Part shown: positions 23,750 through 27,445 of the stretch, piece after piece
How the letters are laid out: each line of letters opens with the position of its first letter
Position numbering within the stretch: the first letter of the stretch is position 1
From: Spartobacteria bacterium
GTDB lineage: Bacteria; Verrucomicrobiota; Verrucomicrobiia; Chthoniobacterales; UBA10450
Assembly: GCA_003169695.1 (NCBI GenBank)
Contig: PNAS01000056.1
Coordinates: 1 to 64,000 of the forward strand
Reading direction: 5' to 3'
Length of the DNA stretch: 64,000 bases
Position numbers and translations under genes: made by a program
Notes under the pieces: generated by a model
Databases searched by the model: none
Seen by the model: only the letters and a program-made list of their open reading frames with translations
What the model was told of the DNA's origin: nothing

Positions 23750-23834
23750 CATTCTGAGCGAAACAAAGAATCTCGCAAGCGATGTCGATGCCGAAAGTAG
23801 TTTGCGAGGCCCCTCGCTTACGCTCGGGATGACA
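23750..23834. repeat. Dispersed palindromic repeat overlapping the hisS stop codon
   Basis: The arms CATTCTGAGCG (23750-23760) and CGCTCGGGATGAC (from 23821) and the inner CTCGCAAGC / TTGCGAGGCCC pairs form an imperfect palindrome of the same family as at 45819. It fills the hisS-aspS gap. Its right arm extends across the end of hisS, so the last residues of HisRS (SSRA) are encoded by the repeat. Confidence 0.65.
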
Positions 23835-25074
23835 GAAGCGTGGCGACGCGTGCGGGGAGTTCTTCGCGGGGCACAAGGCTCTGGTCGCCCGTGCACAAGT
23901 CTTTGAGTTTCAATTGCGGCCACTCGTCGCCGAACAGAACCGCGAGACGCGCGCCCAGTTGCTCGGCAGTCTGAAATTGTTTTCCGACTTTCGCGGGTGT
24001 CAGCGAATAATCTACGCGATAGCCGTTATCGCGGAGCGTTTGGATAAGTTGCAAAGCGTCAGGTCGCCGTTCCTCCTTTGCGATCACAGCGTAAATCTGG
24101 AGGTCATGCTGCGATTGAATCGCTTCCTCCATTTTTTTGCGGGCAGAGGGAACCTCCTTGATCAGCTCTCCCAAGACGACGTCGCCCATGGCGAAACCAA
24201 CTGCCGGGAAATCCACGGCACCATCGCTCAATTGATGAATGAGTGTGTCGTAGCGTCCACCACCGGCGATAGCGCGGAATTTCCGAGGGCGATCAAAAAC
24301 TTCAAAGACCACACCGGTATAATAGGCCAGTCCGCGTACGATCCGCAGGTTGAATTCGCAATACTGGAGCAGGTCACGCGTCTCTAATTGCTCACGTAAC
24401 GGAGCAAACCACTCCAGATTCGCATTCGCGAGAAAGGCCATTAATCGCGCCACTGAAACCCCAAAAAGCTCTAATTTGGGTTGAATCTTTTCAACCTCTT
24501 CGCGATCAAGCTTGTCGATCACGTTCAAGAAATCGGCCTTTTGCTCGGGACCAATTCCAAAGTCAGGTAAGAATCGGTCCCAAGCGGCTCGATCGCTGAT
24601 TCGCACGACGAAATCGTCGGCCGCCAATCCAACCTCCCTCAGCAAGTCAATACACAGCGCGATCAACTCGACATCCGCACCTGACGATTGGTCCCCGATG
24701 ATGTCGCAGTTAAGTTGAAAATGTTCGCGCAAGCGACCGCGCTGTTGTTTCTCATATCGGAAACATTGCGGGATGGAGAACCACTTGAGCGGTTTCTTAA
24801 ACTCGCGCTCATGCGCCGCAATCACGCGCGCCAGCGTGGGCGTTAATTCCGGCCGCATCGCCACTTCGCGTTCGCCCTTGTCGGTAAAACTAAAGAGCTG
24901 CGCAACGATCTCCGGCCCGCTCTTCTTCTTGTAAAGATCAGTCGGTTCCAGGACCGGGCCATCCCACTCGACAAAGCCGTAGCGGCGACAAACCTCGCGC
25001 CAACGCGCGAAAATGTAATTCCGCGCCGCGCAATCGTTTGGCAGAAAATCACGGAAGCCAGGGAGCGATTGCAT
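23818..25074 (-). CDS. hisS: Histidyl-tRNA synthetase
   Basis: Class II synthetase of 418 aa. It starts MQSLPGFRDFLPND. Motif 1 lies in GFVEWDGPVLEPTDLY, motif 2 in QCFRYEKQQRGRLREHFQLNCD, the HisA motif in VRGLAYYTGVVFEVFD and motif 3 in DFPAVGFAMGDVVL. The C-terminal anticodon domain follows (DNGYRVDYSLTPAKVGKQFQTAE). The final four residues lie within a dispersed repeat. aspS is downstream on the same strand, a common hisS-aspS arrangement. Confidence 0.97.
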   Translation of the reverse strand: MQSLPGFRDFLPNDCAARNYIFARWREVCRRYGFVEWDGPVLEPTDLYKKKSGPEIVAQLFSFTDKGEREVAMRPELTPTLARVIAAHEREFKKPLKWFSIPQCFRYEKQQRGRLREHFQLNCDIIGDQSSGADVELIALCIDLLREVGLAADDFVVRISDRAAWDRFLPDFGIGPEQKADFLNVIDKLDREEVEKIQPKLELFGVSVARLMAFLANANLEWFAPLREQLETRDLLQYCEFNLRIVRGLAYYTGVVFEVFDRPRKFRAIAGGGRYDTLIHQLSDGAVDFPAVGFAMGDVVLGELIKEVPSARKKMEEAIQSQHDLQIYAVIAKEERRPDALQLIQTLRDNGYRVDYSLTPAKVGKQFQTAEQLGARLAVLFGDEWPQLKLKDLCTGDQSLVPREELPARVATLLSSRA

Positions 25075-25233
25075 GGAATCAATAAGTCAGGTTGGCGAGA
25101 GGGCGGGCGAGGTAAAGGGAACCGCACCCTGTGCGGATTACGAAATGAGAGTGCGGTTGAATAAACTCCAGCTTCGGGCAGTCGGATGAATGCACGACGG
25201 AGACCATCCGTTTAACCACAGCAAAGGACAAAT

Positions 25234-25674
25234 ATGAAACAAAACAGATTGATTAAATTATTGGCAGCCGGAGCCGTCAGCGCAATCGCGCTTACCACAG
25301 CTTTCGCGCAAACATCCTCAACCACCACCACGACCAACCCAGCGGTCCCTGTGACGAGCAGCTCATCGACCACAACATCGACCAGCACAATGGACGCGTC
25401 GGGCACTATCACAACCTACACGCCGGGCTCGGATTACATCTCCTTCCGCACGGAGACAAGTAGCGCGCCGGTGAAGTATTATTACACCAAGAGCACGACG
25501 ATCGTTGATCCGGAAGGCAAGACGGTTGAGTGGTCCATGCTCAAGCCTGACATGCCGGTGAGATACACCTACGTGAAAGAAGGCGACCGCATGGTGATCA
25601 GCAAGATCACGCTGACGAAGCCAGTGTCGTATTACGAAAAGACGACCACAACGACGACTACGACCAAGCCCTAA
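25234..25674 (+). CDS. Small secreted Ser/Thr-rich protein, copy 1 of tandem duplication
   Basis: 146-aa exported protein. The first 26 residues (KQNRLIKLLAAGAVSAIALTTAFAQ) are a signal peptide. A Ser/Thr-rich linker follows, then a short domain starting GTITTYTPGSDYISFRTETSS with KYYYTKSTTIVDPEGKTVEW and VRYTYVKEGDRMVISKITLT, and a Thr-rich tail. No enzyme motif is visible. An AAAGGA ribosome-binding site lies 7 bp before ATG 25234. A paralogue with the same signal and core lies 761 bp downstream. A strong rho-independent terminator follows the gene. Confidence 0.85.
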   Translation: MKQNRLIKLLAAGAVSAIALTTAFAQTSSTTTTTNPAVPVTSSSSTTTSTSTMDASGTITTYTPGSDYISFRTETSSAPVKYYYTKSTTIVDPEGKTVEWSMLKPDMPVRYTYVKEGDRMVISKITLTKPVSYYEKTTTTTTTTKP

Positions 25675-25707
25675 CGGCAAGCGTAGTAGGTTCGAACTGA
25701 AATTGAG

Positions 25708-25743
25708 AATACCCGCGGAACGTGTTTCCGTGGGTATTTTTTT
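25708..25743 (+). terminator. Rho-independent terminator of copy 1
   Basis: Stem AATACCCGCGGAA / TTCCGTGGGTATT with a CGTGT loop, followed by a run of T ending at 25743. One stem position is a G-T (wobble) pair. It lies about 33 bp after the stop codon of the small secreted-protein gene, and copy 2 has the equivalent hairpin at 26404. Confidence 0.92.
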
Positions 25744-25785
25744 CGTTGTAGGGCGTGTTGCTGACCCCGCCCTGCAGGAGACAGT

Positions 25786-25872
25786 TTAGTGGCCGCAGCC
25801 GTTGGGGAATTTCTGGTGCCATTTCCAGACGCTTCCGATGATCGCTTCGAGGCTTGGAATTGCCAGCGGTAT
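25786..25872 (-). pseudogene. galE 3'-end remnant left by tandem duplication
   Basis: Read on the minus strand, this stretch gives PSLEAIIGSVWKWHQKFPNG and ends with a stop codon at 25786. It matches the C-terminus of the intact galE at 26474 (QSLEAIIESAWKWRQKFPNG). There is no start and no further galE sequence to the right, where the upstream flank of the second small-protein gene begins. It is a scar of the duplication that produced the two small genes. Confidence 0.85.
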
Positions 25873-25994
25873 TATTTGATTGCAAGTTCAAACCCGGCAG
25901 GGTGGAATGCGACCGCACTCTACGCCGGCCACCTTGGAGTAGTCGGACAAATGCACGACGGAGAGCATCCGTTTAACCAAAGCAAAGGACAAAT

Positions 25995-26333
25995 ATGAAA
26001 CAAAACAGATTAATTAGATTATTGGCAGCCGGAGCCGTCAGCGCAATCGCGCTTACCACAGCTTTCGCGCAGGATTCGGCGATATCGACGAACGCAATCA
26101 CCGGGGCGGGAACGATCACGGCTTATACGCCGGGCTCGAACACCATCTCGCTCCGCACAAAAACAGGCAGCCAGCCGGTCAACTATCGCTACACCAGCAG
26201 TACGAGGTTCGTGGATTCGGCAGGCAAAACGGCGCTGCCGTCCACGCTTAAGCCTGACATGTTGGTGAAATTCACCTATGTGAAAGAACGCGACGGCATG
26301 GTGATCCGCACGATCACGCTGACGTCCCGCTAG
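25995..26333 (+). CDS. Small secreted protein, copy 2 of tandem duplication
   Basis: 112-aa paralogue of the gene at 25234. The signal peptide is almost identical (KQNRLIRLLAAGAVSAIALT), and the core (GTITAYTPGSNTISLRTKTG, LVKFTYVKERDGMVIRTITL) is diverged but clearly homologous. It lacks most of the Ser/Thr-rich linker, and the Thr-rich tail is lost by an early TAG at 26331. A tail-like sequence remains in another frame after the stop. The AAAGGA ribosome-binding site and upstream sequence are shared with copy 1. Function unknown. Confidence 0.82.
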   Translation: MKQNRLIRLLAAGAVSAIALTTAFAQDSAISTNAITGAGTITAYTPGSNTISLRTKTGSQPVNYRYTSSTRFVDSAGKTALPSTLKPDMLVKFTYVKERDGMVIRTITLTSR

Positions 26334-26403
26334 GAAAGAAAGAGACGACGACCACCACGAGCAAGGCCTAACCGGAGGCCAGTAGTTTCGACCTGAAATC
26401 TAA

Positions 26404-26439
26404 AACACCCGCGGAACGTGTTTCCGCGGGTGTTTTTTT
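26404..26439 (+). terminator. Rho-independent terminator of copy 2
   Basis: Perfect 13-bp stem AACACCCGCGGAA / TTCCGCGGGTGTT with a CGTGT loop and a run of seven T. It is the duplicate of the hairpin at 25708; one base pair differs in a compensatory way (T-A there, C-G here). Confidence 0.93.
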
Positions 26440-26445
26440 GCTCAA

Positions 26446-26466
26446 GGGCGGGTCGCTGACCCGCCC
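26446..26466. repeat. Perfect palindrome between copy 2 terminator and galE
   Basis: GGGCGGGTC and GACCCGCCC flank a GCT loop, giving a perfect 9-bp stem just beyond the 3' end of galE. The degenerate equivalent after copy 1 (near 25751-25772) reads GGGCGTGTTGCTGACCCCGCCC. It could help terminate galE transcripts, but there is no T-run on that strand. Confidence 0.55.
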
Positions 26467-26473
26467 TCCAGAT

Positions 26474-27445
26474 CTAATCCCCGTAGCCGTTCGGAAATTT
26501 CTGGCGCCATTTCCAAGCGCTTTCGATGATCGCTTCAAGGCTTTGGAATTGCGGACGCCAGCCTAGCTCCCGCTGAATCTTCTCCGAAGCTGCGATAAGT
26601 CGCGGCGGATCGCCCGCGCGCCGAGGCTTCTCCACTACCGGAATTTTGTGGCCGGTCACTCTGCGACAGCACTCGATCACTTCGCGCACGCTCGAACCAC
26701 CGCCGGTGCCAAGATTGTAGAGCTCACTCTTGGGCGCCTTCAACGCGAGAATGTGCGCGTGCGCCAAATCCAGAATATGAATGTAATCGCGGATGCACGT
26801 GCCATCCGGGGTGTCGTAATCGGTGCCGTAGATCTCCACATGAGGCATTAGGCCCAGCGCGACCTTCAAGACATTTGGAATCAGGTGTGTCTCGATGCGG
26901 TGTTCTTCGCCGAAATTCTCTGAAGCGCCCGCGGCGTTGAAGTAGCGGAGCGCGACAAAGCGCAAACCATGAATTTCGCCATACCAGCGCAAGATTTTCT
27001 CGAACGCTAGCTTCGATTCCCCATACGGGTTGATCGGACGCGGCGGCAATGTCTCGTCGATCGGCAATCGTTCCGGCGGACCAAAAATGGCGCAGGTCGA
27101 TGAAAAGACGAGCTGCTTTCGGCCGGTCGCGATCATGGCATCGAGGAGATTCAAGCCGTGCCCGATGTTGTTGCGAAAATATTTCGAGGGATTCTCCATC
27201 GACTCTCCGACCAGGGCGCTCGCGGCAAAGTGCATGACTGCCTCTGGTTGGAACGCAGCCAGCGTCGATTGAATCCGATCGCAGTCCGCTAGATCGCCTT
27301 CGGTAAACTGCGCCCGGGAATCAACCGCGCGACGATGTCCCTCCGTCAGGTTGTCGAATATGCCAACGGTGTGGCCCTCGTTGAGCAACAGTTCAGCGCA
27401 GACGCTGCCGATGTAGCCTGCTCCGCCGACAACGAGAACTTTCAT
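26474..27445 (-). CDS. galE: UDP-glucose 4-epimerase
   Basis: Interconverts UDP-glucose and UDP-galactose for polysaccharide and LPS synthesis. Short-chain dehydrogenase fold of 323 aa: NAD motif GGAGYIGS near residue 7-14, NLTEGHRRAV, catalytic SST (residues 115-117) and Y141-x3-K145 (PYGESK), then RYFNAAGA and DGTCIRDYIHILDLA as in GalE. The C-terminal end is duplicated as a remnant at 25786. It stands alone here, convergent with the small secreted-protein genes. Confidence 0.95.
   Translation of the reverse strand: MKVLVVGGAGYIGSVCAELLLNEGHTVGIFDNLTEGHRRAVDSRAQFTEGDLADCDRIQSTLAAFQPEAVMHFAASALVGESMENPSKYFRNNIGHGLNLLDAMIATGRKQLVFSSTCAIFGPPERLPIDETLPPRPINPYGESKLAFEKILRWYGEIHGLRFVALRYFNAAGASENFGEEHRIETHLIPNVLKVALGLMPHVEIYGTDYDTPDGTCIRDYIHILDLAHAHILALKAPKSELYNLGTGGGSSVREVIECCRRVTGHKIPVVEKPRRAGDPPRLIAASEKIQRELGWRPQFQSLEAIIESAWKWRQKFPNGYGD

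Follow-up and report, generated by a model that had tools for sequence, protein, structure and literature searches.

The DNA analyzed here, a window of 64,000 nucleotides, is part of a 66-kb contig in a draft genome of 85 contigs, and the locus under study lies between hisS (23818–25074, minus strand), the divergent left neighbor identified by a TIGR00442 match and by synteny, and an intact galE for UDP-glucose 4-epimerase (26474–27445, minus strand; TIGR01179, 395 bits). Two plus-strand open reading frames are found in between, with starts at 25234 and 25995, in agreement with the distance of 761 bp between start codons given in an initial annotation of this DNA. The first of these, copy 1 (25234–25674), encodes a 146-residue secreted protein composed of a signal peptide, a Ser/Thr linker, an OB-like barrel and a Thr-rich tail. 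It is preceded on the same strand by a conserved promoter-like block recognized in alignments, TTACGAAA-N-GTGCGGTTGAATAAA (25134–25166), and by a conserved 5′ leader with a short hairpin, ACGGA-loop-TCCGT (25168–25233), and is followed by a terminator (25705–25745). The second, copy 2 (25995–26333), is a truncated, fast-evolving duplicate of 112 residues, the tail of which is readable out of frame downstream. Its leader (25929–25994, plus strand) keeps the hairpin with the upstream promoter-like block deleted, and its terminator-like hairpin (26381–26440, plus strand) adjoins the genuine galE end.

Within the hisS–galE interval, a segment of about 0.7 kb comprising the 5′ leader, the small secreted-protein gene, the terminator and the 3′ end of galE occurs twice in tandem. 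That upstream sequence, signal peptide, core and terminator are common to both genes had been noted from the start, and repeat detection recovered them in register, as leader plus signal peptide (25168–25310/25929–26071, 93%), core (25377–25617/26084–26324, 76%) and terminator (25685–25743/26381–26439, 86%), together with the galE end (25793–25855/26481–26543, 87%). The spacer between terminator and galE is homologous too: compared with the window by blastn, 25746–25930 matched 26445–26552 (E=9e-22) and gave no other significant match. This analysis also delimited a duplicated galE-proximal spacer with a small inverted repeat (25746–25792). The two copies run head-to-tail and are colinear over coding and non-coding flanks, with a galE fragment at the join and the intact galE after the last copy.

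The galE fragment between the copies is a decaying scar on the minus strand (25793–25868; ...KFPNGCGH-stop, with the last codons and the stop just left of 25793). Its alignment with the galE 3′ end scored 106, whereas none of 5000 dinucleotide shuffles scored above 48; the galE-like minus-strand stretch pointed out here in the initial annotation is thus far beyond chance, and tblastn matched the galE C-terminus to it at 81–84% amino acid identity. Whereas the assignment to the galE C-terminus could be upheld, the position originally given for the stop had to be corrected: the scar reads ...WKWHQKFPNGCGH-stop, with the stop three codons past PNG, likewise as in galE itself, which ends ...PNGYGD-stop. 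The frame of the scar is broken by a one-base deletion directly upstream of PSLEA.

Gene, terminator and galE end, the parts first proposed as the unit, are all duplicated, but the unit reaches further to the left; it includes the leader, and its left edge is probably at or near the hisS start codon, to judge from the stretch upstream of the copy 2 leader. This stretch (25869–25928) would contain the duplication junction and a remnant of the ancestral hisS-upstream spacer, as seen by local alignment with the spacer of genome G002, and in the genus alignment it keeps some of the spacer between hisS and the small gene (GCGACCGCACTCTACGC versus GCGACCGCGCTCGACGC in G002). The alignment bettered all but 14 of 5000 shuffles and, since G002 was picked as the best of the ten genomes examined, we regard the strength of this match as moderate. 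On its galE side the join has GGAATTGC as its end, and the sequence at the start of hisS is GATTGCAT; a shared sequence of 4–5 bases at the join, with ATTGC at both edges, is plausible. The literature on RecA-independent junctions offered nothing directly usable.

For comparison with relatives, the neighboring genes were searched by tblastn in 29 loci from other genomes; the close relatives that could be read comprised seven species from the genus plus about 22 further genomes of the family, with soil metagenome genomes of Verrucomicrobia/Chthoniobacterales/Spartobacteria being the relatives having the same locus. Where the fetched stretch reached, the gene order was aspS–hisS–gene–galE–3D-domain gene. 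At each of these loci the small gene was single, and no more than one galE end was present (L024, L030 and L031 gave no galE match inside the fetched stretch); two copies were seen only in the window genome. Among 83 family genomes, the leader motif was found at the hisS–galE locus only, once in each of the 20 other genomes that matched, and twice solely in the window genome, and the reversed leader pattern, used as control, gave zero matches. Two copies with no scar, the arrangement named at the outset as contrary to a duplication of this kind, were seen in none of the relatives checked, all of which had one copy and no scar. Because relatives keep one gene here and the leader motif is doubled only in the window genome, the duplication is specific to this lineage; on the sequence comparisons made, it is a real and mechanistically ordinary tandem duplication. 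The draft state of this metagenome-assembled genome could bring an assembly artefact to mind, but the copies differ by about 24% in the core, the 66-kb contig that contains them continues normally to either side, and synteny with the relatives is intact, and we find such an origin hardly credible.

Distant paralogues of the small secreted family also lie side by side elsewhere (G012:C171, G030:C190, G011:C90, G035:C26 and G014:C140), and tandem copies of the family have therefore arisen more than once in family members. Three members of the genus, G004, G006 and G001 (L014–L016), share a core allele, such as YYYSPKETVLVDSEGATVDWKYLR, that differs from those of the remaining members and of other genera; recombination at this locus, or a derived type, may lie behind it.

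The scar further allowed the event to be dated. Differences between scar and galE were derived on the scar side in nine cases and on the galE side in three, with four undecided, and scar-side divergence was 0.13–0.19 substitutions per site. Synonymous sites of galE have accumulated about 0.41 per lineage since the split from G003, the nearest sampled species, and the duplication would therefore date back over roughly one-third to one-half of the time to that split, an estimate from few sites with which the absence of the scar from G002 and G003 agrees. That the event is not recent, as first stated, is borne out by the divergence of the copies and of the scar. We propose that a head-to-tail duplication of some 0.7 kb took place in a single lineage of a genus of soil Chthoniobacterales. 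The duplicated stretch would begin around the hisS start codon and end some 70 bp within the galE 3′ end, and the join was presumably made through the few bases shared at both edges. That hisS and galE were both left intact, with part of galE lodged between the copies, can be read directly at the locus.

The region upstream of the small gene is well conserved in its own right. The block TTACGAAA...GTGCGGTTGAATAAA is present in nearly all relatives, and copy 2 has lost this block, of about 29 nt; because a consensus promoter scan made no call at 25134–25166, its role as a promoter is putative. In the second leader hairpin, pairing reached 96% and three pairs had changed on both sides, whereas a candidate hairpin in the leader's first part was rejected as weak, at 66.7% of cells paired. 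The hairpin with compensatory changes sits before the ribosome-binding site, the leader (25134–25233) is conserved across L008–L036, and a search of Rfam gave no match above the gathering score. The signal-peptide codons (25234–25311) had a dS of 0.06–0.33 between species, compared with 0.8–1.8 in galE, and this low synonymous divergence suggests that the beginning of the small gene is constrained at the nucleotide level. Mean identity between species was 94% for the leader and 91% for the signal peptide versus 78% for the core. The two copies are nearly identical in their 5′ parts; gene conversion was weighed as a cause and set aside, since species resemble one another just as closely over this stretch.

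Copy 1 was predicted to form a disordered linker followed by a five-strand barrel of OB type, as seen in the predicted model. The core fold most resembled 2qcp (VIA Z 10.3, rmsd 2.0 over 74 residues), with the next unrelated OB folds at about 8, and hence the periplasmic OB-fold proteins CusF/SilF, to which the likeness is one of predicted core fold, sequence identity to CusF being 14–16%. The copper site of CusF consists of His36, Met47 and Met49. As residues 51–146 of copy 1 contain neither His nor Cys, copy 1 has no His/Met/Trp copper site and its core cannot match the site of CusF, which uses His. The CusF_Ec profile gave no match for copy 1 and a subthreshold one for copy 2 (E=0.083, 13.2 bits against a cut-off of 27). 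Searches of Pfam and NCBIfam found no family for either copy, the PDB held no sequence relative, a plasmid search gave no match, and some relatives showed weak matches to New_glue or MerB.

Regarding selection, copy 1, on the hisS side, is the conserved orthologue. Its protein is 94% identical to that of G002, it has changed none of 27 near-invariant core residues and its dN against orthologues is 0.02–0.07; it has stayed under the usual strong purifying selection, with its full promoter-leader region kept. Copy 2, about 58% identical to copy 1, no longer has the Ser/Thr linker; a frameshift and a premature TAG have cost it the Thr-rich tail, and 11 of the 27 near-invariant residues are altered. 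Core differences between the copies were derived in copy 2 in 32 cases and in copy 1 in five; dS between the cores was 0.49, like that between species, and dN 0.23. In two-ratio codon models run with two topologies, omega was 0.46–0.53 on copy 2 compared with 0.05 elsewhere (LRT 23–25), a tenfold relaxation of constraint, and an omega fixed at 1 on copy 2 was not rejected (LRT 2.2–3.4), with the point estimate below 1. In a tree of the 74-codon core, no placement of copy 2 was supported, and its origin from copy 1 consequently rests on the shared flanks.

Copy 2 thereby displays relaxed or neutral coding evolution and a disabling lesion relative to its orthologues, as in a pseudogene in the making. 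The initial annotation took the divergence of the copies to suggest that the extra one is kept; divergence of both copies is in itself no evidence of retention, and the relaxed constraint, the loss of the promoter-like block, the frameshift truncation and the changes at near-invariant residues leave that view unsupported. We consider it rather probable that copy 2 is redundant and, having lost the promoter-like block, linker and tail, is decaying towards a pseudogene. A less probable but still sizeable possibility is that the same duplication left copy 2 as a reduced secreted protein of signal peptide and barrel, diverging in function and expressed from a new promoter or by readthrough. This would accord with a reading frame that is still open and truncated directly after the last predicted strand, a core still predicted as a barrel at a pLDDT of about 90, an omega that is not 1 and the distant paralogues elsewhere in the genomes, some in tandem. 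Yet 40 neutral substitutions would leave the frame open with a chance of about 0.32, and an open frame is as such no sign of retention; neutrality was not rejected, and the deleted promoter-like block and the altered core residues argue against such a protein. The signal peptide, leader hairpin and ribosome-binding region are nearly unchanged in copy 2 and, given the signal peptide and the predicted CusF-like OB barrel, some reduced function may persist.

The neighboring hisS has a history of its own. Window hisS (23818–25074) showed 64–70% identity to every other genus member, those being 71–87% identical among themselves, and in a hisS tree it fell outside the clade of most genus members, grouped with G006 and a g10 genome. 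The adjoining aspS was 95% identical to that of G007 and galE 90% to that of G003. A divergent and tree-outlying hisS between genes close to the genus suggests in-place replacement by a foreign allele. One could thus envisage that a foreign fragment with hisS, copy 1 and a galE end recombined beside a native copy 2, replacing the native hisS, and the upstream spacer of copy 2 is in fact closer to that of G002 than to that of copy 1. However, the close match of copy 1 to the G002 protein sets it apart from the divergent hisS, a foreign block predicts copy 1 and not copy 2 as the outlier, and G006 also has an outlying hisS, yet one copy and no scar. We therefore hold such an import to be very improbable, and retain a tandem duplication within the lineage as the preferred origin.

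With all orthologues of the gene being single-copy, the locus illustrates a short tandem duplication with particular clarity, in that the galE fragment both fixes the unit and serves as a neutral clock. It also exposes an uncharacterized family, namely a conserved secreted protein with a predicted OB barrel, a fixed hisS–galE position and a highly conserved leader. As a speculative and unlikely combination, copy 2 could be a stripped-down secreted barrel retained in a new role soon after duplication, with the conserved leader acting in the bacterial family as a hitherto undescribed RNA or translation-control element confined to this locus. The usual fate of duplicates is loss or inactivation of one copy (PMC3857721). 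Small tandem segmental duplications share with this locus the head-to-tail copies, the adjacent-gene fragment between them, and one conserved and one relaxed copy; nothing here differs in kind from those known, and the present case is only unusually legible, because the neighboring galE end marks the unit.
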